This document shows, piece after piece, positions 1 to 11,322 of a DNA stretch of 11,322 bases. Position 1 is the first letter of the stretch; every line of letters starts with the position of its first letter. Location: positions 1-11,322 of the forward strand of contig CAJOPI010000242.1 of assembly GCA_905236275.1 (NCBI GenBank). The letters are read 5' to 3'. The position numbers were made by a program, and so were the translations under genes. Under the pieces are notes generated by a model, which did not search any database, was not told the DNA's origin, and saw only the letters and a program-made list of their open reading frames with translations. The stretch is from an uncultured Lachnospiraceae bacterium. GTDB taxonomy: Bacteria; Bacillota; Clostridia; Lachnospirales; Lachnospiraceae.

Positions 1-1607
1 AAGTGGAAGGAATAGACAGGCTTGTTCCCGCCTGTGACAATGTTGTAACTGAAGGAATGGTTATCAGAACCAACAGTGCAAAGGTAAGGGAGAGCCGAAG
101 AATCAATGTTGAACTGATAATGAGCCAGCACAACGGTGAATGCATGAGCTGTGTCCGTTCCGGCAACTGTCCTTTGCAGACCCTGGCCAACGATATGAAT
201 ATTGTCTCTGATATTCATTTCAAAAAAGATCTGCCGATTAACCACTGGGATAGCTCTGCCCCTCTTATAAAGGATTCTACTAAGTGCATTAAATGTATGC
301 GCTGCGTACAGGTCTGCGACAAGGTTCAGAGCATGAACATCTGGGATATAAGCGGAACCGGCGGACATACCTCAGTAGACGTTTCCTATAACCGCGAAAT
401 TCTTGGGAGTGACTGCAGCTTCTGCGGCCAGTGCATTACGCATTGTCCTACGGGAGCCCTTCGCGAGCGTGATGATACGGATAAGGTTTATGCTGCTCTT
501 GAAGACCCGAAGAAAACAGTGGTCGTTCAGGTTGCTCCGGCAGTACGCGCAGCCTGGGGCGAAGACTTTGGTATAAAACGTGATGAAAATTCAGAAGGCC
601 TGATGGTATCAGCCCTGAAACGTATAGGATTTGACTATGTCTTCGATACGAATTTTGCTGCCGATATGACTATCATGGAAGAAGCTAATGAATTCCTTCA
701 TCAGCTTAACAACTCTGACAAGCATAAATTTCCAATGTTCACCTCCTGCTGCCCGGGCTGGGTACGTTTTATGAAGTCCCAGTTCCCCGACATGACAGGA
801 CAGCTTTCAACAACTAAGTCTCCGCACCAGATGTTTGGCGCCACCATAAAGAGTTATTTTGCAGAATTAAAGGGCATTGACCCGAAGGATGTGTTCGTGG
901 TTTCCATTATGCCCTGTCTTGCCAAGAAAGCTGAGGTTGCCGAGCCTAACCAGAATGATGCCTGTGGGGAACCGGATGTGGATGTGTCACTTACCACTCG
1001 CGAAATGAACAGGATGATAAGAACCGACCATATCATCCCTTCGATCCTTAAGCCTCAGCGCTTCGATGAACCTTTGGGAATCGCTTCCGGTGCCGCTCAG
1101 ATTTTCGGCGTTACCGGAGGTGTCATGGAGGCAGCCCTTAGAACAGCATATTTCAAGGTTACAGGCAGGAATCCCGACCCGGATGCATTTAAGAATGTCA
1201 GCGGAATGGACGGCTGGAAGGAAGCTGCTTTTGATATAAACGGAATAGAACTGAAGGTTGCCATCGTCTCAGGACTCGGCAACACCAGAAAGCTTATCAA
1301 CGAAATCCGTAAGGGTAAGGTTCATTACGACTTCGTTGAGGTCATGGCATGTCCCGGAGGATGCTCCGGAGGCGGAGGTCTTCCCATACATGAAGATCTC
1401 AACTTGACCGCCGAGCGCGGAGACATGCTCTATGGTCTTGATACAAACAATAAAATAAGATTCTCACACGAGAATCCCGGAGTAATAAAGCTCTATAAAG
1501 ACTACTTCGGAGAGCCATTGTCCGAAAAGGCAGAAGAACTCCTCCATACCGATCACTTCGGCTGGGAGATACCTCTTTCACCCCGGATGCCGGTATCTGA
1601 AGCTTAA
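1..1607 (+). CDS. hydA: [FeFe] hydrogenase catalytic subunit (5'-truncated by window edge)
   Basis: Catalytic subunit of a cytoplasmic [FeFe] hydrogenase, which makes or oxidises H2 with electrons from ferredoxin and/or NADH. Numbering from the first whole codon (position 3): Cys11 is probably the last ligand of an N-terminal [2Fe-2S] domain whose start lies outside the window. His43, Cys47, Cys50 and Cys56 form the His-ligated [4Fe-4S] site. Two ferredoxin-type CxxCxxCxxxC clusters follow (Cys95-105 and Cys138-148). The H-cluster domain carries all three signatures: TSCCPGW (247-253), MPCLAKKAE (303-311) and EVMACPGGCSGGGG (446-459). The small C-terminal domain is present and ends at TAA. 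The GTG at position 3 is an internal valine, because the conserved 2Fe-2S domain would extend further upstream. The domain order fits the HydA/HndD type that often partners NuoE/NuoF-like subunits; such partners may lie upstream, but this cannot be seen. Bifurcating versus simple NADH or ferredoxin use cannot be decided here. Confidence 0.95.
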   Translation, partial: VEGIDRLVPACDNVVTEGMVIRTNSAKVRESRRINVELIMSQHNGECMSCVRSGNCPLQTLANDMNIVSDIHFKKDLPINHWDSSAPLIKDSTKCIKCMRCVQVCDKVQSMNIWDISGTGGHTSVDVSYNREILGSDCSFCGQCITHCPTGALRERDDTDKVYAALEDPKKTVVVQVAPAVRAAWGEDFGIKRDENSEGLMVSALKRIGFDYVFDTNFAADMTIMEEANEFLHQLNNSDKHKFPMFTSCCPGWVRFMKSQFPDMTGQLSTTKSPHQMFGATIKSYFAELKGIDPKDVFVVSIMPCLAKKAEVAEPNQNDACGEPDVDVSLTTREMNRMIRTDHIIPSILKPQRFDEPLGIASGAAQIFGVTGGVMEAALRTAYFKVTGRNPDPDAFKNVSGMDGWKEAAFDINGIELKVAIVSGLGNTRKLINEIRKGKVHYDFVEVMACPGGCSGGGGLPIHEDLNLTAERGDMLYGLDTNNKIRFSHENPGVIKLYKDYFGEPLSEKAEELLHTDHFGWEIPLSPRMPVSEA

Positions 1608-1635
1608 AGATAAAAGTAACCTTGATTTGTCAGGT

Positions 1636-1690
1636 AACTCAAAAAAAGATGCAACAGATGATAAATGTCTGTTGCATCTTTTTTTGAGTT
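1636..1690 (+). terminator. Perfect 23-bp hairpin terminator after the hydrogenase
   Basis: The left arm (1636-1658) and right arm (1668-1690) are exact reverse complements around a 9-nt loop. The stem core is GATGCAACAGA / TCTGTTGCATC, flanked by an A7 tract on the left and a T7 tract on the right (1679-1685). It is therefore a classic intrinsic terminator that could also work on the opposite strand. It begins 28 nt after the hydrogenase stop and should insulate the downstream sugar genes. The 131 nt between it and the next gene are AT-rich and hold no promoter that I can call with confidence. Confidence 0.9.
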
Positions 1691-1821
1691 GTGTCTTCTT
1701 GTGCAAATTATCATACAAGATAGTAAATATTTGAAAAGAATGATTATAAAGATTCTCTTAAAATACATTTATCAAATGAAAAACCTTATGGGGTAAACAA
1801 TATTTAAGAGAGGTATCAGCA

Positions 1822-3237
1822 ATGGAGAAAAAAAAGAGAGCTTCACGCTTAGGCATGGTATGCTATGGTTTAGGAGATTTAGCATCACAGTTCGTATGGA
1901 CTTATGTAGGTTCATATCTGACGATTTATTATACTGACATAGTTGGTCTTGCACCGCTTGCAGTAACGGTCATCATGATGCTTGCAAGAGTTTGGGACGC
2001 AGTAAATGACCCGATGATGGGGGCAATCGCGGAGAGAACACGTTCTAAATTCGGAAGGTTCAGACCTTACATCGCATTCGGTGCACCCTTCCTTGCAATA
2101 TTCAGTGTACTGACCTTTGTAAATCCTTTTAGCGGACATAGCACCGCAGGCGTTATCTGGGCAGCAGCAATGTACATCATTGCAGGAATGATCTACACAC
2201 TCGTAAACATTCCTTATGGCGCACTTGCAGGCGTTATGACAGAGGATGCAAACCAGAGAAACGTTATCAATACCTTCAGAAATATCGGTATGAACCTCGG
2301 AATGGTTATCGTAAACGGTCTTTCAGCAGGACTTGCCCTTAAGTTTTCGGCACCGGGCGCACAGGTGGCTGACGGACATGGTTATATGATGGTTGCTGTT
2401 GTGTACGGTATCATCGCAGTTCCGATGTTTGTAATAGTAGCACTTACAGGTAAGGAAGTCATACAGCCTGTAAATGAAGAGGTAAGAGGATTTTCTTTTA
2501 AGGAAACAATATCAAACCTTGTAAAGAACAAATATCTCATGATAATCACACTCATCATGGTACTCCAGATGACAGCATTTATGGGACGTATCGCAGTAAC
2601 AGCTTTTTATGTGATTTACTGTCTTGGTTCCTTCACAATGATAGGTCTTATAATGACTATCCCTTCAATCGGCGGTATCGTTGGTTCGTTCTTTGTTCCT
2701 TTCTTTGCAAAGAGATTTGGAAAGAGAAACGTTTTAATGGTTGGAATGGCAATTCAGGCAATCGGACTTTTTATCATGTATCTTGCACCTTTTGATAATA
2801 TTAACATGGTGCTTGCAGGAGACATAATTTTCGGACTCTTTAACATTGGTTTCCCGATGAGTCTTTCAATGGTATCTGACTCAGTTGACTACATGGAACT
2901 CAAAAGCGGCGTACGTACAGACGGAACAGCTTATGCAACTTACGGACTTGCAACCAAAATCGGTAATGCGGTCGGTGGTGCATTCGGTATCATGATAATG
3001 AGTGCATTCGGATATGTTGCAAACGCAGAACAGACAGCGGGCGCACTTAGAGGAATAAATATCACAGTAAACCTTATACCGGCAATACTGTTTTTAGTAT
3101 CGGCAGCAGCCTGCCTCCTTTGGGATATGACTGACGCTGATGCTGATGAAATCAGAAGAAAGCTTGCCAACAGACATAAATCAGACAGCGAATCTGAAAG
3201 AAAGGCTGTTGAAGTTGCGGAAGTAGCTGAAGCTTAA
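1822..3237 (+). CDS. GPH/MelB-family sugar:cation symporter (MFS)
   Basis: Membrane symporter of the glycoside-pentoside-hexuronide (GPH) family, 471 aa, with about 12 hydrophobic segments. It probably imports a sugar or glycoside with Na+ or H+. The N-terminal block has the family pattern, with an RxWDAxNDP motif in which Asp59 and Asp63 match the two cation-site aspartates of MelB. The adjoining cytoplasmic loop RTRSKFGRFRP (72-82) and the PYGALAGVMTED segment (131-142) are also typical. The C-terminus is a short charged cytoplasmic tail (about 440-471). The start ATG follows an AAGAGAGG ribosome site at 1806-1813. It is the first gene of a unit with the TIM-barrel protein (28 nt to its ATG) and the small beta-like protein, so it is likely the uptake route for their substrate. 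An export or exchange role for the released sugar or aglycone cannot be excluded. Confidence 0.9.
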   Translation: MEKKKRASRLGMVCYGLGDLASQFVWTYVGSYLTIYYTDIVGLAPLAVTVIMMLARVWDAVNDPMMGAIAERTRSKFGRFRPYIAFGAPFLAIFSVLTFVNPFSGHSTAGVIWAAAMYIIAGMIYTLVNIPYGALAGVMTEDANQRNVINTFRNIGMNLGMVIVNGLSAGLALKFSAPGAQVADGHGYMMVAVVYGIIAVPMFVIVALTGKEVIQPVNEEVRGFSFKETISNLVKNKYLMIITLIMVLQMTAFMGRIAVTAFYVIYCLGSFTMIGLIMTIPSIGGIVGSFFVPFFAKRFGKRNVLMVGMAIQAIGLFIMYLAPFDNINMVLAGDIIFGLFNIGFPMSLSMVSDSVDYMELKSGVRTDGTAYATYGLATKIGNAVGGAFGIMIMSAFGYVANAEQTAGALRGINITVNLIPAILFLVSAAACLLWDMTDADADEIRRKLANRHKSDSESERKAVEVAEVAEA

Positions 3238-3251
3238 AATAGTTTTAGATT

Positions 3252-3257
3252 AAGAGG
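3252..3257 (+). promoter_or_regulatory. Ribosome binding site that sets the start at 3266
   Basis: AAGAGG, continuing as AAGAGGTGA, is a near-complete Shine-Dalgarno sequence placed 8 nt before the ATG at 3266. The open frame reaches back to a GTG at 3257-3259, but that GTG overlaps the ribosome site itself and cannot be served by it. The ATG is therefore the chosen start. Confidence 0.8.
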
Positions 3258-3265
3258 TGAAAGAA

Positions 3266-4138
3266 ATGTATAAGTATGACAGAAAAGGACCTAAAAGGGG
3301 AGTGGCTTTATACAGCTACTCTGCCGAGTTTGGTCTTACAAAGACACTTGAAGATTGTTTTGAAGATTTGCATGATATGGGTGCTCATGGTATCGAAATC
3401 CTTGCGAATACCCATATCGAGAATTATCCTTATCCCACAGATGAGTGGGTTGAGAAATGGCACAGACTTTGCGATAAATATGAAATCGTTCCTGTAGAAT
3501 ACGGTAACTGGATTGACTCACACGTTCTCGGTGACAGAGACCTTACAACGGAAGAGTCAGTGGAGATGCTTAAAAGGGATATCCGCCTTGCACATCGTCT
3601 GGGATTTACCGTAATGAGAACAAAGATGCCGGTAATCAACGACCTGCTTGAGCCTGTTCTTAATTGGAGAGAGATCATCAAGGGCGCGCTGCCTTTAGCA
3701 GAGGAGCTTGGCATTCAGATGTGCCCTGAGATACACACTCCTTCAAACCTTAAAGGCAAGCTTGTAAATGATTTTGTTGATTTCATCAAAGAAACAGGTA
3801 CAAAGAATTTCGGCTTAAATATCGACTTTTCCGTATTCCGTACAGAATTCAAGGAAGGCGAATGGGTTGACCCGAACTACACACCGAACAAGCCGGAGGA
3901 TATCATACCGCTACTCCCTTATATTTACTGCTGCCATGCTAAATTTATCAACATGAGTGATGATTTCAGGGAGACAACCATTCCTTATCCTGAGATCATA
4001 AAGGTTATGCAGGAAAATGGTTACGAGGGCTATCTTTTAAGCGAGTATGAGGGCGCTGACAAGTATGATGAAGGTTATGAAGTAGGACAGACGCTCCGCA
4101 AGCATCACATTTTGCTTAAAAATCTGCTTGGGGATTAA
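3266..4138 (+). CDS. Xylose-isomerase-like TIM-barrel protein, candidate C-glycoside deglycosidase alpha subunit
   Basis: Predicted cytoplasmic 290-aa metal-dependent TIM-barrel protein of the sugar phosphate isomerase/epimerase (AP endonuclease 2-like) superfamily. Candidate metal ligands fall at strand ends as in that fold: Glu155 in CPEIHTP, Asp187 in LNIDFS, His224 in CCHAKF and Glu260 in LLSEYEG. His157, two residues after Glu155, is a possible catalytic base. The superfamily alone does not fix the reaction. The call rests mainly on the gene 25 nt downstream, which resembles the small beta subunit of C-glycoside deglycosidases (DgpB, DfgB and relatives). Those enzymes are alpha/beta complexes whose alpha subunit is this kind of barrel, and they cleave the C-C bond of C3-oxidised C-glycosides by a metal-assisted elimination. 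An ordinary 3-keto sugar isomerase or epimerase remains possible. The fold is near certain; the deglycosidase role is an inference of moderate strength. Confidence 0.8.
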
Positions 4139-4149
4139 AGAGCGACATC

Positions 4150-4154
4150 GGAGG
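4150..4154 (+). promoter_or_regulatory. Ribosome binding site that sets the start at 4164
   Basis: GGAGG lies 9 nt before the ATG at 4164. The same frame is open back to a TTG at 4128, inside the previous gene, but that codon has no ribosome site. Starting at 4164 removes a 12-residue basic extension with no family likeness. Confidence 0.8.
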
Positions 4155-4163
4155 AAACAGACA

Positions 4164-4607
4164 ATGGAAAAACAGGTTATTCAGTCAGTTGGATTTAGAA
4201 ATACAAAAGACGAAAAGGGAAATGTTACAGGCTTTCAGTTCAAGGTAAGGCTGCCCTATTACAGAGGGATTTTCCTTTCTCAGATACGTCCGGGCACGCT
4301 TTTTGTTGACGGAGAGAAGATTGAAAAGGACGATATCGTTTGGAACATCAATGGTGAGGATTTCACGAATGAGGAAATGGCTTCTGATTTCCAGACACAT
4401 TGGGCAACCACGAGCCCTGCCGTATTAAAGGTTAAGAAGGCAGGCGGACTTGCGCAGGGCTATCATGATCTGAAGTATGGCTTCTGCTTTACCTCATCCT
4501 ATATGCCGCCGATTATCCAGAACGGTCTTGACCCGGACAAGGAATCAATGGTCTATATGCCTGAGTTTGGTCATCATGTAAATGAAAGAAGACTGCTTAT
4601 CGTTTAA
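4164..4607 (+). CDS. C-glycoside deglycosidase beta-subunit-like protein (DUF6379 type)
   Basis: Small soluble protein of 147 aa with no signal peptide or membrane segment and a beta-rich composition. I recognise the family, formerly DUF6379, as the beta subunit of C-glycoside deglycosidases. Supporting features are the N-terminal VRLPYYRGIFLSQI stretch (28-41), the following VDGEKI..DDIVW..NGEDFTNEEM block (48-72), a W80 segment, the KKAGGLAQGYHDL stretch (91-103), and the SSYMPP motif (111-116). In the known enzymes this protein binds the TIM-barrel alpha subunit and completes the active site. The placement directly after the barrel gene, with 25 nt between them, matches the alpha-beta gene pairs of dfg and dgp clusters. 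It is the last gene of its unit: a hairpin terminator begins 24 nt after its stop. The family call is from memory of sequence pattern and was not checked by search. Substrate specificity cannot be read from it. Confidence 0.72.
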   Translation: MEKQVIQSVGFRNTKDEKGNVTGFQFKVRLPYYRGIFLSQIRPGTLFVDGEKIEKDDIVWNINGEDFTNEEMASDFQTHWATTSPAVLKVKKAGGLAQGYHDLKYGFCFTSSYMPPIIQNGLDPDKESMVYMPEFGHHVNERRLLIV

Positions 4608-4631
4608 TAAAACTGTATCGGTATCAGATTC

Positions 4632-4672
4632 TAAAGGTCAGAAAATGCATAGTGTTTTCTGACCTTTATTTT
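4632..4672 (+). terminator. Intrinsic terminator after the beta-like gene
   Basis: A perfect 14-bp stem, TAAAGGTCAGAAAA (4632-4645) with TTTTCTGACCTTTA (4655-4668), encloses a 9-nt loop and runs into TTTT. The T-tract is short, so termination may be incomplete and some read-through into the ABC-transporter unit is possible. Confidence 0.8.
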
Positions 4673-4725
4673 CTGACTGTTTTCAAAAGGTCAAAATAGG
4701 TGCGATTTATGGGAAAGAGGCAGGT

Positions 4726-4753
4726 AGAGGCAGGCGTAAAGCTGAATTATAAT
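4726..4753 (+). promoter_or_regulatory. Candidate promoter P1 for the ABC-transporter unit
   Basis: A perfect TATAAT -10 hexamer lies at 4748-4753. At 17-bp spacing the -35 position (4725-4730, TAGAGG) matches TTGACA at only three of six bases and falls inside the AGAGGCAGG box. This suggests activator-dependent transcription. The start would be near 4760, giving a leader of about 164 nt. Confidence 0.55.
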
Positions 4754-4759
4754 AGACTA

Positions 4760-4786
4760 TGCAATAAATAAATGACATTTGTTGCA
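4760..4786 (+). repeat. 10-bp inverted repeat at the expected P1 start site
   Basis: TGCAATAAAT (4760-4769) pairs with ATTTGTTGCA (4777-4786), with one G-U pair and a 7-nt loop. It sits immediately downstream of the -10, so it may be a repressor operator over the transcription start or a 5'-terminal stem-loop in the messenger RNA. Confidence 0.5.
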
Positions 4787-4788
4787 GG

Positions 4789-4839
4789 TCTGAACAGGAT
4801 AAGGTTTCGTATGCAAAAAATGAAATCAAATTGTTCAGA
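4789..4839 (+). repeat. 8-bp inverted repeat TCTGAACA / TGTTCAGA in the leader
   Basis: TCTGAACA (4789-4796) and TGTTCAGA (4832-4839) are exact reverse complements separated by 35 nt, extendable by a G-U pair on each side. It could be a leader stem or two operator half-sites. The long gap makes a simple dimer operator unlikely, and chance cannot be excluded. Confidence 0.35.
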
Positions 4840-4846
4840 TATGAAA

Positions 4847-4874
4847 AGAGGCAGGCGTGGCTTTGAGTTATCAT
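4847..4874 (+). promoter_or_regulatory. Candidate promoter P2 for the ABC-transporter unit
   Basis: The third AGAGGCAGGCGT box is followed 22 nt from its first base by TATCAT (4869-4874), which matches TATAAT at five of six bases. The geometry is the same as in P1. The bases just before the -10 are also alike (TGAAT in P1, TGAGT in P2). Transcription would begin near 4881, giving a leader of about 43 nt. Confidence 0.45.
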
Positions 4875-4923
4875 AAAGTCACAAGACAAGCAAAGAACTT
4901 TCAAATTCAGGAGGAAAGTAATT

Positions 4924-6078
4924 ATGAAGAAAAAAATATTATCAGTAATTCTTGCAGGAGTGATGGCATTTTCACTTTCAGCATGCGGCAGCAGCTCATC
5001 AGATAACGGAGCAGCAGGAACAGTGGCTTCTGAGAAAGCTTCGGAGACAGCTTCGGAGACAGCAACAGGCGAGACAGCAGACAGCGCAGCAGCTTCAGCA
5101 TCAACACATATTTATGTATTGACGGCTCCCGAAGATCATGGCTGGACAGGTTCGGTTGCAACCTTTGCAAAAGAAAAGGTTGAGGAAGTAAATGGCGAAG
5201 GCAAGTACAGCGCAGAGGTTATCACCTGTGACGATGCTTCTTATCAGATCAACCAGATTGAGGATATTATCGCAAAGGGCGAAAAGGATATCGCGGTTGT
5301 TATACAGCCTATCGATGATACGGTTCAGTCAGCTATCCAGGAGCTTGTTGATGCAGGCATTCCCTATGTGGCTTTCGACAGGATTATTGATGGTGTTGCA
5401 GACAGCGCGGTTGCAAACGTAAAGGGCGACAATGAGGGTATCGGTGCAGGTTCGGCAGCATATTTCGTATCACTCGGACTGAAACCCGGCGATAAGGTTT
5501 ATGTTTATGAAGGAGATACCTCTTCAGTAACAACACTTCGTAATCAGGGATTTACAGAGTATCTTACAGGCGCGCTTGCATTTGACGGCGAGACAATTGC
5601 TGATGATGCTAAGTGGACAGAGGACCAGGTAAACAGCAGCATTACCTATTCAGGTGCAATGAACTGGAGCCGTTCTGATACCAAAGCCGCATTTGAGACA
5701 CTTATGGGTGACAGCTCAAATACTTCCACAAAGTGGATTTATGCAGAGGATGATGAGCTTGCAATGGGTATCCTTGAAGCATTAAACGGTGGTGGAATTG
5801 ATGATGCTGCAAAGAGTTCATTCCTCGGAAACAAGCCCGTTATCACAGGCTGCGGAGGTCTTGATGAGTTTTACGGCGTTCTCAGAGGTGAGTCCTATGA
5901 AGATATTTACGGACAGCTTGGCGGATTTATGTCAGTAACCTACAGCCCCAGCATGATACAGACAGCTATTGCAGATATGGTTGATTATCTTGACGGCAAA
6001 GAAGTAACAAAGGATCACGTTATCGAATGCCAGAATGTAACTGCTGATAATGTGGCTGAATTTAAGGGATTTAACTAA
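4924..6078 (+). CDS. Sugar ABC transporter substrate-binding lipoprotein (RbsB-like)
   Basis: Extracellular solute-binding lipoprotein of 384 aa, in the periplasmic-binding-protein type 1 family used by ribose/galactose-type ABC importers. A basic N-terminus, a hydrophobic stretch and the lipobox LSAC (18-21) predict lipidation at Cys21. Residues 22-60 form a Ser/Ala/Glu/Thr-rich linker to the membrane anchor. The binding domain starts near 62. The PYVAFDR segment (147-153), with Asp152-Arg153, and the AEDDELAMGILEAL segment (274-287) correspond to conserved ligand-lobe regions of RbsB-like proteins. AGGAGG at 4909-4914, 9 nt before the ATG, supports the start. It is the first gene of a unit with its ATPase and permease and a Gfo/Idh/MocA enzyme. 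The ligand is unknown; a monosaccharide or a glycoside of the kind handled by the neighbouring deglycosidase-like pair is plausible. Confidence 0.92.
   Translation: MKKKILSVILAGVMAFSLSACGSSSSDNGAAGTVASEKASETASETATGETADSAAASASTHIYVLTAPEDHGWTGSVATFAKEKVEEVNGEGKYSAEVITCDDASYQINQIEDIIAKGEKDIAVVIQPIDDTVQSAIQELVDAGIPYVAFDRIIDGVADSAVANVKGDNEGIGAGSAAYFVSLGLKPGDKVYVYEGDTSSVTTLRNQGFTEYLTGALAFDGETIADDAKWTEDQVNSSITYSGAMNWSRSDTKAAFETLMGDSSNTSTKWIYAEDDELAMGILEALNGGGIDDAAKSSFLGNKPVITGCGGLDEFYGVLRGESYEDIYGQLGGFMSVTYSPSMIQTAIADMVDYLDGKEVTKDHVIECQNVTADNVAEFKGFN
5037..5060 (+). repeat. Tandem 12-bp repeat in the lipoprotein linker
   Basis: AGCTTCGGAGAC occurs twice in a row and encodes part of the repeated Ala-Ser-Glu-Thr of the linker. 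It is a short in-frame duplication that could vary the linker length by slippage without breaking the frame. Confidence 0.7.
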
Positions 6079-6121
6079 ATTGAAACTGCATATTTAATGA
6101 GCCAACCGGGAGGAGAACACA

Positions 6122-7603
6122 ATGTCTTTACTTGAAATGAAAAACATAAAAAAATCCTTCAGCGGCGTACCGGTTCTGAAAGGCGTGGATTTAACGGTTG
6201 AAAAGGGCGAAATCCACGCCCTTCTCGGTGAAAACGGAGCCGGTAAGTCAACGCTGATGAATATAGTAACAGGAACCATCGATTTTGACGATGGAAGCAT
6301 AAATTTCGACGGAGAAGTATTAAAGAATATTACTGTTAAAAGGAGTGAGGAAAAAGGCATAGCTTTTGTGCATCAGGAACTCAATCTTTTCAATGATTTG
6401 AGGGTGTTTGAAAATATATATATAAATAAAGAACTCACAAACAGCTTCGGAAAATTGAAGAAAAAAGAAATGATAAGAAACTCCGAAAAGCTGTTTGAAG
6501 AGTTAGGGGTCAATATAGACCCAACAGAAATGGTTGAAAATCTGAAAATGGGAGAGAAGCAGCTTCTCGAAATTTCAAAGGCACTTTTCTTTGACGCGAA
6601 GCTTCTCATTCTCGATGAGCCAACCACTTCGCTGACAAATGAAGAGGTTGAGCATCTTTTCAAGATAGTAAAGGATCTGAAAAAGAAGGGAATTTCCTTC
6701 ATATTCATTTCGCATAAAATGCCGGAAATATTTGAATACTGCGATGCCTATACAGTTTTCAGAAATGGTGAATATGTAGGCAGCGGCAAGATTGCTGATA
6801 CCAATCCGGCTGAGGTGACGAAACTCATGGTAGGTCACGCTTCGAATTCGGGTGAGCTTTATCGCGAAAGAAAGAGCGGAGAAGAAGTATTAAAACTTGA
6901 AAATCTTTCGGGAAAAGGCTTTAGGAATATAAATATGTCTGTAAAGAAAGGTGAAATCGTAGGACTTACAGGACTTCAGGGCTCGGGCAGCAGCGAGCTT
7001 CTGCAAAGCCTTTTCGGGGTATCACCCATAACATCAGGTGGGATTAAGGTTAAGGGTCAGGAATATAAAAACCTTACTACCCATAAATCCATGAAAGCGG
7101 GGATAGGACTTCTGCCCGCGAACCGAAAGGAAAATTCGGTCATACCTGATATGACTATCGTAGAAAATATGTATCTTGCAGAACAGGTTTTATCGGCAGG
7201 ACATTTTAACATAAATAAGAAAAAGGAAAAAGAGAATTACAATAATTATAAGCAGCAGATAAATATCAAGGCAGAGTCACCGGACGATGGTATTCTCTCG
7301 TTAAGCGGCGGAAACCAGCAGAAGGTATTTATGGCGAGATGGCTCAATACAGGCGCAGATATTCTTCTTTTTGACAATCCGACTCAGGGAATTGACGTTG
7401 GTGCAAAGGAAGAGATTTATAAGCTGATACTAAAACTATCGGAGTCGGGAAAGACTATTCTCGTGAATACGTTGGAGATACCGGAATTACAGAAGGTTGC
7501 AGACAGATGTGTGATTTTCTACAACGGTGAGATTATTAAAACTTTGGCTCATGATGAAATTGAAGAACATACGGTAATGATGTATTCAACAAATTCTCTA
7601 TAA
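6122..7603 (+). CDS. Sugar ABC transporter ATPase with two nucleotide-binding domains (RbsA/MglA type)
   Basis: Cytoplasmic ATPase of a ribose/galactose-type importer, 493 aa, two fused ABC domains as usual for the family. Domain 1 has Walker A GENGAGKST (36-44), Q-loop Gln85, Walker B with catalytic Glu (LLILDEP, 161-167) and switch His198. Its signature is LKMGEKQ (141-147), with Lys in place of the usual Ser. Domain 2 has a good signature, LSGGNQQ (394-400), but a Walker A with no lysine (GLQGSGSSE, 284-292) and a Walker B reading LLFDNP (415-420), so Asn419 replaces the catalytic Glu. One composite ATP site (Walker motifs of domain 1 with the signature of domain 2) therefore looks intact and the other degenerate. 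GGGAGGAG precedes the ATG. It lies 43 nt after the binding-protein gene and 7 nt before the permease. Confidence 0.95.
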   Translation: MSLLEMKNIKKSFSGVPVLKGVDLTVEKGEIHALLGENGAGKSTLMNIVTGTIDFDDGSINFDGEVLKNITVKRSEEKGIAFVHQELNLFNDLRVFENIYINKELTNSFGKLKKKEMIRNSEKLFEELGVNIDPTEMVENLKMGEKQLLEISKALFFDAKLLILDEPTTSLTNEEVEHLFKIVKDLKKKGISFIFISHKMPEIFEYCDAYTVFRNGEYVGSGKIADTNPAEVTKLMVGHASNSGELYRERKSGEEVLKLENLSGKGFRNINMSVKKGEIVGLTGLQGSGSSELLQSLFGVSPITSGGIKVKGQEYKNLTTHKSMKAGIGLLPANRKENSVIPDMTIVENMYLAEQVLSAGHFNINKKKEKENYNNYKQQINIKAESPDDGILSLSGGNQQKVFMARWLNTGADILLFDNPTQGIDVGAKEEIYKLILKLSESGKTILVNTLEIPELQKVADRCVIFYNGEIIKTLAHDEIEEHTVMMYSTNSL

Positions 7604-7610
7604 GAAAGAC

Positions 7611-8645
7611 ATGGATATGGCGATGGAAACGATTAATAATAAAAAGAAAAACGTGCTCGGGGCTATCTGGCACAATTACAGCTTCATATTTGTATTTTTT
7701 ATAATATTTATTGTGTATGCGCTTACAAGCAGTGCAATGACATGGAGCGCAACAATGAATATACTGAGGCATTCTGCGGTTATCGGTATTATCTCACTGG
7801 GGATGGGCATGGTCTGCCTTACAGGTGAGATAGACCTTTCGGCAGGCTCAACCCTCGCACTGGTAAGCGGCTTTTCGGTAGTGGTATTCAATGCGACATC
7901 GGGAAATATTTTTCTTACGGCAATATTTGCAATTGTATTCGGTGCATTGCTGGGAACTGTAAACGGGCTGCTTGTCGGTGTCGTAAAAATGCCGTCATTC
8001 ATAGTAACCCTCGCAACCATGCTGATTTACAGGTCATTTTCACAATATTTCTGTCAGCATATTTCGAAGGAGCTTATAGGCGGCGGAAGCTCGGTTTACA
8101 GAATGTCGAATAAGTTCAGCGGCTATGAGCTTATGTATTCGCTTGGAAATAATAAGCTTGCAACGATTCCGATAGTTGGAATAGTTCTTATAATCTTCAC
8201 CGCACTTTTTGTATATATCCTTGAAGATACAAAATACGGCAAAAAAATTTATGCCACAGGCTCCAGTGAAAAAGGTGCTTTCATGACAGGTATCAACGTA
8301 AAGGCAGTTAAAATGTCTGTTTTCGTGATAATGGGTATTATGGTCGGTGTAGCTGCTTACCTTTGGATCTGCATGAATGCTTCATCTGATCCGGCTACAA
8401 CAGGTTCAAGCTATGAGATGTATGCAATAGCAGCAGTTGTTTTAGGCGGAATTGCCATGAGCGGCGGACGCGGAAGAATGCTCGGAGTGCTTTTCGGCTC
8501 TCTGTCATACACCGTTATTGACAAGATAATCATAGCCCTGAAGATGGATTCGCTCATAAATAACGCGATAAAGGGTATAATTCTTATAGTAGTAATTCTT
8601 ATACAGATTGCAGCACCGCAGATCAAGGAGAAGCTGAAGAAATAA
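7611..8645 (+). CDS. Sugar ABC transporter permease (RbsC-like)
   Basis: Integral membrane permease of a ribose-type importer, up to 344 aa with about 8-10 hydrophobic segments. Family landmarks are the TGEIDLSAGSTLAL stretch (71-84), the NGLLVG..KMPSFIVTLATM stretch (118-137), the TGINV segment (226-230) of the ATPase-contacting loop, and AIAAVVLGGIAMSGGRG (272-288). It probably forms the channel as a homodimer. The start is uncertain: in-frame ATGs lie at 7611, 7617 and 7623. None has a strong ribosome site, and a weak AAGAAAG (7602-7608) is best spaced for 7617. I give the outermost. The 7-nt gap to the ATPase stop suggests translational coupling. The N-terminal 20 residues are polar and cytoplasmic. 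Confidence 0.93.
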   Translation: MDMAMETINNKKKNVLGAIWHNYSFIFVFFIIFIVYALTSSAMTWSATMNILRHSAVIGIISLGMGMVCLTGEIDLSAGSTLALVSGFSVVVFNATSGNIFLTAIFAIVFGALLGTVNGLLVGVVKMPSFIVTLATMLIYRSFSQYFCQHISKELIGGGSSVYRMSNKFSGYELMYSLGNNKLATIPIVGIVLIIFTALFVYILEDTKYGKKIYATGSSEKGAFMTGINVKAVKMSVFVIMGIMVGVAAYLWICMNASSDPATTGSSYEMYAIAAVVLGGIAMSGGRGRMLGVLFGSLSYTVIDKIIIALKMDSLINNAIKGIILIVVILIQIAAPQIKEKLKK

Positions 8646-8658
8646 GGGGTTATTTATA

Positions 8659-9720
8659 ATGGATAAAATCAGAGTTGGAATTATAGGCTGCGGAGCAATA
8701 TCCGTCAGAAGGCACTTGCCGGAGTATGTGGCACGCGAAGATGTGGAGATTGCGGCAATTTACAACCGTACAAGAAGCAAGGCGGAAGAGGTACAGCGCG
8801 AGTACGGCGGAGTGGTCTGTGACAGTATCGAACAGCTTGTCAATATGGATATTGATGCGGTAAGCGTTTGTACGGCAAATTCAAGACATGCCCATGATGC
8901 AATACTTGCGCTTCAGGCAGGCAAACACGTCCTTTGTGAAAAGCCTATGGATGTAGCTATTTATAAGTGTATAGCAATGGTGGAGGAGGCTGAGAAAGCC
9001 GGAAAGCTTCTGATGATAGCGCAAAATCAGCGTTTTTCGTCAGCACACGTTAAGGCTAAAGAGCTGATTGATGCAGGTGAGATAGGAAGAATTGTTTCCT
9101 TTGAAACCAAGTTCGGTCATTCGGGACCTGAGCGCTGGACGGGCTCAGATGATACATGGTTCTTTAAAAAGACTGATGCCGGAATGGGGGCGCTTGCCGA
9201 CCTCGGAATTCACAAGACAGACCTTGTGCATTATCTGACGGGGCAGACTATTACGGAGGTTTACGCACATACAGCAACACTCGACAAGAAATATCCCGAC
9301 GGAAATCCCATAGATGTTGAAGATAACGCATGGTGCATCTATAAGCTTGCAGACGGTGCGACAGGAACGATGCACGCGAGCTGGACGGATTACGGACAGG
9401 AGTACAATTCGATTGTCATTCATGGAACGGAAGGCTCGATAAGATGCTATGATGACAGGGAATACAGTCTTATAGTTGAAAAAAGCGATGGAAGGCAGAA
9501 TTTCCTTTCTACCGAAAAAATGATGACGAATACGGACCAGACCATAGGAACAGGTGAAAACCTGCATTCGGGGGTTATCGACGAATTTATCGAGAGTATA
9601 AAAAAGGAAAGGGTATGCCGATGCACAGGAGCAGAAGCACTCAAATCCATGCGTGTGATTTTTGCGGCTATGGCATCCTCGGAGATTGGCAGAATGATAA
9701 CTATTCCTGAGAACAGATGA
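8659..9720 (+). CDS. Gfo/Idh/MocA-family NAD(P)-dependent oxidoreductase, candidate glycoside C3-oxidase
   Basis: Cytoplasmic sugar dehydrogenase of the Gfo/Idh/MocA family, 353 aa. The N-terminal Rossmann fold has the dinucleotide motif GIIGCGAIS (7-15). The conserved CEKPM (93-97) supplies Lys95, and the DLGIHKTD segment (181-188) supplies the Asp, His and Asp used by the family at the active site. The C-terminal sheet domain is complete. The start has an AAGGGG site (8644-8649), 9 nt before the ATG and 13 nt after the permease stop, so it belongs to the transporter unit. Members oxidise or reduce a ring hydroxyl of sugars or inositols. In strain PUE the relative DgpA oxidises the glucose C3 of puerarin before the deglycosidase acts. 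The deglycosidase-like pair upstream makes this role plausible here, or the reverse: reducing the released 3-keto sugar. A plain inositol or sugar dehydrogenase is the alternative. Confidence 0.9.
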   Translation: MDKIRVGIIGCGAISVRRHLPEYVAREDVEIAAIYNRTRSKAEEVQREYGGVVCDSIEQLVNMDIDAVSVCTANSRHAHDAILALQAGKHVLCEKPMDVAIYKCIAMVEEAEKAGKLLMIAQNQRFSSAHVKAKELIDAGEIGRIVSFETKFGHSGPERWTGSDDTWFFKKTDAGMGALADLGIHKTDLVHYLTGQTITEVYAHTATLDKKYPDGNPIDVEDNAWCIYKLADGATGTMHASWTDYGQEYNSIVIHGTEGSIRCYDDREYSLIVEKSDGRQNFLSTEKMMTNTDQTIGTGENLHSGVIDEFIESIKKERVCRCTGAEALKSMRVIFAAMASSEIGRMITIPENR

Positions 9721-9733
9721 TAAAGATTATCAA

Positions 9734-9772
9734 AAAAATGGGTGCTTCCTAATATTTGGAAGCACCATTTTT
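9734..9772. terminator. Bidirectional terminator between convergent genes
   Basis: GGTGCTTCC (9741-9749) pairs with GGAAGCACC (9758-9766) around an 8-nt loop. Beyond one bulged G at 9740, AAAAAT (9734-9739) pairs with ATTTTT (9767-9772). A and T tracts on the two sides allow termination in both directions. It lies 13 nt past the oxidoreductase stop, and its right arm overlaps the first two bases (9771-9772) of the SulP stop codon, so the convergent genes share it. Confidence 0.85.
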
Positions 9773-11322
9773 ACAGTAGTTCATTAGCTCTTTCAAGGGC
9801 TGCATCTATATGCTCACAGAAGTTTTCTTTACCGACTTTATCGAGGAAACCGGCTTTCTGCATTGTGTGCATCGGCTGTTCATTAACGTGAGAGAAGATG
9901 ACGGTTATGTTGCGCTTTTTGCAACGCTCCCATACGCCGTCAAGGGCTCGAAGTGCCGTTGCGTCAAGTGCCGGAACACCTCTCATTCTGATTATCAGGC
10001 ATTTTGTGTAGTCCTTTACTGAAATGCTTGTAAGCAGGTCTGCAACGCCGAAAAACATAGGACCGCAAATCTCATATACTCTGACCGTCTTCGGAACCAC
10101 TTTAAGTGAAATAGCGTCCTTATCATCTTCCGTTCCAAAATATTTCCAACCTGTAACAGAGGTTTCCTCGCTCATCCTCTTCATGAAAAGCAGTCCTGCG
10201 AGAAGCATTCCGACTTCGATAGCCATTACAAGGTCGAATACGACCGTAAGTATGAAAGTCGTCACAAGTACGATAATATCGCTTTTGGGGGCTGTTTTGC
10301 AGAGATGCACAAAAGCTCTCCATTGGCACATATTATAGGCGACGAGGAAAAGTATTGCCGCTATTGTAGGCATCGGGATAAGTGCTGCATAGGGCATGAG
10401 AATAACGAGCACCAATACCAAAACTATCGCGTGAACCATGCCGGCAATGGGAGTCTTACCACCGTTCTTGATATTGGCAGCGGTTCTTGCAATAGCACCG
10501 GTTGCCGGAATGCCGCCGAAAAGGGCAGAACCGATATTACCGATACCCTGAGCGACAAGCTCCATATTTGAACGGTGCCTTGAACCTGTCATACCATCTG
10601 CAACGACACAGGAAAGTAGTGATTCAATGGCTGCAAGAATCGCGATGGTAAAGGCATTCGGAAGAATATTACCTATTGCATTCAGAGAAAGCTCCGGCAT
10701 GGTGAAATGGGGAAGCTCACTGCTTATCGTATAAAGGTCTCCGATGGTATTTACCTGAAGTCCGAGACATTTTACCATAATGATACCGATAATTACGGCT
10801 ATGAGCGAACCAGGAATTTTGTCGTTTACATAAGGCCAGATGATCAGTACAGCAACCGAAACAGCACCCACGATAAGAGCCTGAAGGTTGAAGCTTCCGA
10901 AATATTTGAAAAAGGCGGACAATTTCTCCATTGTCTCTATGGTAACCGTGCCTGCAGGATAGGTTAAACCGAAAAAATCCTTAAGCTGTCCGATGAGAAT
11001 GGTGACAGCGATGCCGGCTGTGAAACCTGTTGTGATCGTATAGGGAATGAATTTAATGAGGCTGCCGAGTCGGAGAAGTCCCATTACGATAAGTATCAGT
11101 CCGGCAATGACTGTGGCAAGAGCCAGTCCCGACATACCGTTTTTTGCAACGATACCGGCAACGATTGTTGCGAAAGCTGCCGTTGGTCCTGCAATCTGCA
11201 CTTTGCTTCCACCGAGAAATGAGATAAGAAAACCGGCAATAATCGCGGTATAAATACCTTCCTCGGGACCGACACCGGAAGCCAGCGCAAGCGCAATTGA
11301 AAGGGGAAGTGCTATAACGGCA
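9771..11322 (-). CDS. SulP-family anion transporter with STAS domain (5'-truncated by window edge)
   Basis: Membrane transporter of the SulP/SLC26 family for sulfate, bicarbonate or another inorganic or organic anion; 516 residues lie in the window. The frame stays open to the window end. The first visible residues (ALPLSIALALASGVGPEEGI) are the typical SulP N-terminal core, so the GTG at 11201 is an internal valine and the true start lies beyond 11322. The family signature is present around window residues 232-284, with ADGMTGSRHRSNMEL and a GGIPATGAIART loop. Multiple hydrophobic segments follow, then a cytoplasmic STAS domain over about the last 110 residues, with VPALDATALRALD near the usual anti-sigma-antagonist-like helix. 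It is transcribed toward the sugar locus and ends in the shared terminator, so it is probably unrelated to it. The transported ion cannot be told from sequence. Confidence 0.93.
   Translation of the reverse strand, partial: AVIALPLSIALALASGVGPEEGIYTAIIAGFLISFLGGSKVQIAGPTAAFATIVAGIVAKNGMSGLALATVIAGLILIVMGLLRLGSLIKFIPYTITTGFTAGIAVTILIGQLKDFFGLTYPAGTVTIETMEKLSAFFKYFGSFNLQALIVGAVSVAVLIIWPYVNDKIPGSLIAVIIGIIMVKCLGLQVNTIGDLYTISSELPHFTMPELSLNAIGNILPNAFTIAILAAIESLLSCVVADGMTGSRHRSNMELVAQGIGNIGSALFGGIPATGAIARTAANIKNGGKTPIAGMVHAIVLVLVLVILMPYAALIPMPTIAAILFLVAYNMCQWRAFVHLCKTAPKSDIIVLVTTFILTVVFDLVMAIEVGMLLAGLLFMKRMSEETSVTGWKYFGTEDDKDAISLKVVPKTVRVYEICGPMFFGVADLLTSISVKDYTKCLIIRMRGVPALDATALRALDGVWERCKKRNITVIFSHVNEQPMHTMQKAGFLDKVGKENFCEHIDAALERANELL

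Follow-up and report, generated by a model that had tools for sequence, protein, structure and literature searches.

A probable DfgAB-type C-glycoside deglycosidase in an uncultured Lachnospiraceae bacterium

Introduction

In C-glycosides, sugar and aglycone are linked by an unusually tough carbon-carbon bond. The two-subunit enzyme DfgAB requires a 3''-oxo substrate, and hence an oxidase to provide one.

The closest described system is DfgA-DfgB of Eubacterium cellulosolvens (EuCGD), whose structure, metal dependence and C6 specificity are established according to passages of PMC8563793: the enzyme forms an alpha4-beta4 complex, is active on 3''-oxo C6-glucosides and inactive on C8-glucosides, and is represented in that paper's reference list by the DfgA-DfgB structures 7exb and 7dre. 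Compounds 3-5 of the paper appear to be homoorientin, isovitexin and mangiferin. The same passages describe EuCGD as having no lid domain, which PuCGD and AgCGD2 possess, and as having extended loops instead, M121-N133 in alpha and T110-V139 in beta; PuCGD (DgpB-DgpC of strain PUE, 7bvr), with a lid on its alpha subunit, acts on C8-glycosides, and the metal site and base were tested by mutation in PuCGD and MiCGD (PMC8563793).

E. cellulosolvens carries a dfgABCDE cluster, and DfgCD are reported to be active on O-glucosides (both from passages of PMC11170127). Another beta-eliminase of 3-keto glycosides, AtOGE (8bvk), resembles these enzymes in its chemistry but works on O-glycosides, as excerpts of PMC10628242 describe. 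For the oxidation step, a study of human-gut metagenome-assembled genomes (MAGs) considers DfgD unlikely to take part in C-deglycosylation, as most dfgABCE carriers lack it (excerpts of PMC8398226), and a DgpA is reported to oxidise both C- and O-glycosides (abstract of PMC11239390). Here we describe a dfgAB pair in the genome of an uncultured Lachnospiraceae bacterium, encoded in a window of 11,322 nucleotides that is the whole of contig C242.

Results

The window holds the following features, given with their strand where assigned:

1640..1686, plus strand: terminator-like hairpin before the symporter gene (20-pair stem, T-rich tail; consensus match only)
1822..3237, plus strand: GPH-family sugar:cation symporter (NCBIfam TIGR00792 gph, 343.9 bits, cut-off 231.35; Pfam MFS_2)
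3266..4138, plus strand: dfgA, alpha subunit, lidless TIM barrel with metal site (271/290 residues identical to 7bvs_A; Pfam AP_endonuc_2)
4164..4607, plus strand: dfgB, beta subunit, beta-sandwich contributing part of the active site (125/147 residues identical to 7bvs_B; PF19906)
4632..4668, plus strand: terminator-like hairpin after dfgB (17-pair stem, then TTTTCTGACT; consensus match)
4924-6078, plus strand: sugar ABC transporter, binding protein (Pfam Peripla_BP_4)
6122-7603, plus strand: sugar ABC transporter, two-domain ATPase (Pfam ABC_tran)
7611-8645, plus strand: sugar ABC transporter, permease (Pfam BPD_transp_2)
8659..9720, plus strand: Gfo/Idh/MocA oxidoreductase (Pfam GFO_IDH_MocA)
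9741-9766: hairpin closing the stretch from the ABC transporter to the Gfo/Idh gene (4924-9720; consensus match)

Neither flanking gene looks related to the locus: positions 3-1607, where the contig begins, hold an ORF that by eye resembles an [FeFe] hydrogenase, and positions 9771-11201 encode a SulP-type sulfate permease with a STAS domain (Pfam).

The alpha and beta genes lie exactly where a preliminary description of this DNA had placed them. The dfgA ORF runs from an ATG at 3266 to a stop at 4138 (290 aa; an alternative longer form begins at GTG 3257), a spacer of 25 nt occupies 4139-4163, and dfgB runs from an ATG at 4164 to a stop at 4607 (147 aa; an alternative longer form begins at TTG 4128). 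In a search of all PDB chains, DfgA found its best match in 7bvs_A (E = 1.9e-194, residues 1-290), and DfgB matched 7bvs_B, which was deposited as DfgB (E = 5.4e-87, residues 1-147); counted on full-length ungapped alignments, DfgA is 93% and DfgB 85% identical to these chains, DfgB differing at 22/147 positions, and agreement of this order lies far outside chance. The 7bvs sequences are themselves identical to those of 7dre and 7exb. DfgB also passes the Pfam model PF19906 (CGDB, C-glycoside deglycosidase beta subunit) with 127.6 bits against a cut-off of 27.6, which makes the 147-aa protein a member of the family that it had been said to resemble; against NCBIfam it gave no match, and the window's genome has one CGDB gene.

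DfgA matches eight PDB sequences (E 1e-3). One of them, 8qrz, includes a fused beta-type region and the others are each accompanied by a beta-type chain, these partners and the fused region being among DfgB's own PDB matches. By similarity the barrel falls in the CGD-alpha clade of xylose-isomerase-like barrels, not in an isomerase clade without such partners; AtOGE (8bvk) is not among the PDB matches of DfgA at this threshold. Because 8qrz/8un2 (435 aa, named 'Sugar phosphate isomerase') matches DfgB with residues 3-119 and DfgA with residues 143-427, it represents in one chain the same pair that the window encodes as two genes. PuCGD shares the alpha/beta family and the metal site (alpha E 2.5e-40, beta E 1.1e-13), but whereas its alpha subunit is lidded, the window's DfgA aligns without gaps to the lidless, C6-type EuCGD. 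The likeness to EuCGD extends to both subunits at full length, the alpha-then-beta gene order, seven active-site residues and both characteristic loops (alpha 121-133, beta 110-139), which are present in the window pair at the same length.

A scan of species genomes confirmed 87 relatives, from which 80 loci were kept (L numbers below). In 79/80 of them the DfgB region starts 8-109 bases past the aligned end of DfgA; the contig of L072 ends inside DfgA, and in L029 DfgB is only a fragment at a contig end. Seven residues, E155, D187, H224, K226, E260, H157 and E262, are invariant in 75/75 full-length relatives from these loci and identical in 7bvs. Five of the seven (Glu155, His157, Asp187, His224 and Glu260) are found at the positions given in the preliminary description, which left two unnamed, Lys226 at a metal ligand position and the water-positioning Glu262. 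The metal ligands of AgCGD2 are Glu147, Asp179, His269, Lys271 and Glu305, with His149 as base and Glu307 in a supporting role (passages of PMC8563793); transferred by motif (E-x-H; D; H-x-K; E-x-E), without direct alignment, these roles would make E155, D187, H224, K226 and E260 the metal ligands and H157 the base, with E262 positioning a water.

The window pair is a close homologue, and most likely an orthologue, of DfgAB (EuCGD) of E. cellulosolvens, and as such it very probably cleaves 3''-oxo C6-glucosides, which we take as the best explanation of the pair. The full-length 7bvs matches of both chains and the CGDB domain support the earlier reading as a two-subunit C-glycoside deglycosidase. 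As far as examined, none of the outcomes that would have refuted that reading was seen: the small protein belongs to the beta family, the two subunits form a complex in the solved structure 7bvs at 93% (alpha) and 85% (beta) identity, and the barrel's PDB matches come with beta-type partners. Its wording as a candidate resembling DfgAB was right about the pairing and understated the relationship, which is close homology to DfgAB itself, and the substrate that it had left open can be narrowed, by that homology, to the class of 3''-oxo C6-glucosides. The enzyme itself is already known, structurally solved and characterised from a close relative; here it is found in a new genome.

That this copy is active, which substrate it takes, that the symporter imports it and which protein is the oxidase are our inferences, and the most likely course is as follows. 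A flavone (or xanthone) C-glucoside would be taken up, perhaps via the GPH symporter, and C3'' of its glucose would be oxidised by an oxidoreductase that probably belongs to the Gfo/Idh/MocA family. The resulting 3''-oxo C6-glucoside would bind to the DfgA-DfgB complex, which is alpha4-beta4 in the relative, at the alpha/beta interface, where a divalent metal held by E155, D187, H224, K226 and E260 would aid deprotonation of an aglycone hydroxyl and H157, with E262 and a water, would take the C2'' proton; beta-elimination would then break the C-C bond and yield the aglycone and a 3-keto-glycal.

In contrast to the EuCGD locus, dfgA in the window is immediately preceded by a symporter gene, and dfgB is followed by an ABC transporter. 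The hairpins at 1640-1686, before the symporter gene, and at 4632-4668, after dfgB, suggest that GPH, dfgA and dfgB form one transcription unit, in which the symporter is the probable uptake partner. Consensus hairpins are no proof of a terminator, since the window has 9 of them where 5.9 are expected; promoter-like sites (22, with 17.1 expected) were left out of account. L001, and by eye also L002, has a hairpin similar to the strong one at 4632-4668 just 3' of its dfgB. The genes from the ABC transporter to Gfo/Idh (4924-9720) look like a separate unit, and the transporter is perhaps not functionally tied to dfgAB. Upstream of the binding protein, a 29-nt direct repeat (4726-4754 and 4847-4875, 76% alike, 121 nt apart) is a possible regulator site.

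The symporter gene stands directly before dfgA, with 81-93% identity, in L001, L002, L003 (where the contig start cuts it) and L077; in the remaining carriers the locus either includes a GPH symporter of lower identity (25-64%) at some point or, in the flanks examined, has none. The binding protein, ATPase and permease have relatives (62-91%) immediately after dfgB in L002, L003 and L018, the contig of L001 ending within the binding protein; in L004, L020 and L021 such relatives occur about 6 kb downstream. L005 and L026 have a binding-protein relative 9-10 kb from dfgAB, and the flanks examined in the remaining loci contain no close relative of all three ABC genes together. A recurrent neighbour of dfgAB is an AraC-type regulator of about 800 aa (labelled by eye) that has an additional C-terminal region: the L010 copy lies at -2627 from dfgA, and proteins 40-48% identical to it occur in L002, L004, L014, L019, L020, L021 and L026. 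None was found among the window's Pfam-searched genes.

Carriers of dfgAB come from a range of Lachnospiraceae and other Clostridia, and many of the assemblies are titled as from ruminants. DfgA found a match at E 1e-3 in 27/299 genomes drawn from the window's family; carriage is patchy, because only 5/299, the window's own genome among the five, have a match of at least 73% identity. The one genome of the window's genus in this 299-genome draw gave no DfgA match. Near the first pair, a second and divergent alpha/beta pair (DfgB-like 35-47%, DfgA-like 26-59%) occurs in L012, L013, L005, L018, L073 and L075.

When L002 (Oribacterium; DfgA at 10001-10870) was compared with 19 carriers, leaving out L065 (wrong reading frame, 23-25% to the others), DfgA identity exceeded that of the RpoB domain PF00562 by more than 10 points in 14/19, as against L004 (DfgA 97.2%, RpoB 78.0%), and was lower than RpoB identity against L062 and L076. 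With L065's pairs included, DfgA identity is above that of RpoB in 133/210 genome pairs. The window's genome, in which no RpoB was found, stands outside this comparison. DfgA may have moved between genera, but these identities are a hint only, because slower evolution of DfgA would also raise them.

The gene order in L010 (Pseudobutyrivibrio ruminis) served to name the remaining proteins: downstream of dfgAB come a TIM-barrel protein (279 aa), a first Gfo (437 aa, taken here as 425 aa from an inner ATG), a second Gfo (359 aa) and a GPH symporter, and the names DfgC, DfgD and DfgE class follow this order, not a comparison with the E. cellulosolvens proteins. In support of this naming, the L010 DfgE-class protein finds its best PDB match (E 6.8e-128) in 9m37, 'DgpA2 and isoorientin complex'. 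The best PDB match of the DfgD class is DgpA, 7xr9 (E 7.2e-28). Unlike in the E. cellulosolvens cluster, no dfgC, dfgD or dfgE adjoins dfgAB in the window. The window's genome (2.51 Mb, 453 contigs, 81.5% complete) encodes DfgC- and DfgD-class homologues on another contig, C3 (81% and 82% identical to the L010 proteins), the DfgD-class one at 3301-4581, and the DfgC-class homologue has AtOGE (8bvk) third in its PDB list (E 5.3e-25), which with the reported O-glucoside activity of DfgCD also speaks for the naming. A DfgE-class oxidase, the usual kind, was not found at this completeness, the best of five Gfo-like places reaching 32% over residues 53-224. The resulting doubt over the supply of 3-keto substrate and the 22 differing positions of DfgB are points against the preferred explanation. 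Beside the DfgC/DfgD-class genes on C3 (L098 of genome G000, 130-2043, minus strand), a lipoprotein-like binding protein and a permease resemble a nitrate/sulfonate-type ABC transporter by eye.

The window's own Gfo/Idh protein (8659-9720) is a candidate 3-oxidase or 3-keto-sugar reductase and, to judge by its sequence, not a DfgE-class orthologue: over part of its length it shares 27% identity with each of the two L010 proteins of the DfgE and DfgD classes, and its low identity to the former led us to reject the possibility that it is DfgE itself. It could, compatibly with the DfgAB explanation, be a dedicated 3-oxidase, with 1822-9720 forming one pathway. Its best PDB match is indeed DgpA, 7xr9 (E 5.2e-29), but the next, a 'putative dehydrogenase' (2e-27), almost equals it; L002 and L003 preserve the order GPH-dfgAB-SBP-ABC-permease-Gfo, but in the window a terminator-like hairpin separates dfgB from the Gfo gene. 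L060 and L061, which have no DfgE or DfgD class at E 1e-30, encode a 47-50% relative just after dfgB, about 1.3 kb from the dfgA start. Against this, 21/40 of the carriers introduced below have no relative of the window's Gfo at E 1e-30, and L022 has its relative on the opposite strand, some 6.4 kb away from dfgA and beside an ORF that by eye resembles a GH43-type glycosidase. We regard a dedicated 3-oxidase at this position as rather unlikely. An A. tumefaciens Gfo protein is reported, on preliminary evidence, to work in reverse and reduce 3-keto-glucose to glucose downstream of AtOGE (excerpts of PMC10628242), so that recycling of the sugar product is another possible role for the Gfo of the window.

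We searched for the oxidase classes in 40 carriers, namely the genomes of 39/80 loci and the window's own, picked by hand for long contigs, high identity and isolates and hence not a random sample. At E 1e-30 the DfgE class is present in 29/40 and absent from 11/40; in 23 of the positives the best match is 69-100%, and in the other six (G304, G324, G330, G332, G336 and G337) only 49-62%, so that the positive count falls to 23 if these are taken as negative. Without DfgE class are the window's genome, three MAGs (L003, L060 and L061) and seven carriers titled as strains, L002 (Oribacterium sp. KHPX15), L004 (MA2020), L014, L019 and L026 (Butyrivibrio spp.), L020 (NK4A144) and L021 (MC2017), for which an assembly gap is therefore a less likely reason.

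The DfgD class was likewise present in 29/40 carriers at E 1e-30, three of these positives being fragmentary: G300 (C-terminal 71 residues only, on two contigs), G304 and G337. It occurs in 9/11 DfgE-less carriers (in L003's genome by C-terminal fragments only), and the other two, L060 and L061, have the relative of the window's Gfo beside dfgAB; each of the 40/40 carriers thus has at least one candidate oxidase in a DfgD, a DfgE or a Gfo relative. A replacement of one class by the other is not supported by their joint distribution (both in 20, only DfgE in 9, only DfgD in 9, neither in 2; Fisher p = 0.69), which fits independence, so that co-occurrence is no proof of replacement. The set includes both carriers with DfgE and no DfgD and the reverse. 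In 7/9 carriers with DfgD only (L002, L004, L014, L019, L020, L021 and L026), DfgC- and DfgD-class genes are in the dfgAB locus itself, shortly upstream of dfgA in L014, L019, L020, L021 and L026.

Discussion

Two rival readings of the pair were weighed. Its natural substrate could be a 3-keto O-glycoside or another 3-keto sugar derivative, handled by the same fold and pairing: the adjoining genes are general sugar transporters, and the genome has homologues of the DfgC and DfgD classes, DfgCD being the proteins reported active on O-glucosides (excerpts of PMC11170127). Yet the pair is 93%/85% identical, EuCGD-specific loops included, to an enzyme with measured 3''-oxo C-glucoside activity, and beta-elimination of O-glycosides has an enzyme of its own, AtOGE (8bvk; excerpts of PMC10628242), which the genome's DfgC-class homologue resembles; we consider this reading very unlikely. 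More improbable still, to the point of rejection, is an ordinary sugar isomerase or epimerase with a small neighbour by chance: AP_endonuc_2, the barrel's sole Pfam domain, is a general family, but the full-length matches to both 7bvs chains are decisive against it, the barrel's other PDB matches have beta-type partners or a fused beta-type region, and the barrel's only NCBIfam match, an epimerase model, stays at 18.9 bits, far under the cut-off of 305. A DfgAB-type C-glycoside deglycosidase thus stays the preferred explanation.

How such an enzyme would obtain its 3-keto substrate in carriers without DfgE is a more tentative matter. We suggest, with somewhat less than even confidence, that some rumen DfgAB carriers, the window's bacterium included, C-deglycosylate without the DfgE class, the DfgD class or the Gfo protein at 8659-9720 making the 3-keto substrate. 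One oxidase serving both kinds of glycoside is plausible in light of the DgpA that acts on C- and O-glycosides; if our suggestion holds, a single oxidase may supply two lyases, DfgAB for C-glycosides and DfgC for O-glycosides. No title or abstract among the matches listed from open-licence PMC papers concerned DfgE-less carriers, which is weak evidence of novelty.

A structurally solved enzyme that cleaves flavonoid C-glucosides is now placed in various Lachnospiraceae and other Clostridia, with ruminants named as the source in the titles of many assemblies, and in such hosts we infer that its natural substrate would be the C-glycosyl flavones of forage. Carriers with DfgC and DfgD and without DfgE bear directly on the inference against DfgD drawn from human-gut MAGs (excerpts of PMC8398226), and the identity of the oxidase would tell whether DfgE-less bacteria degrade C-glycosides at all.
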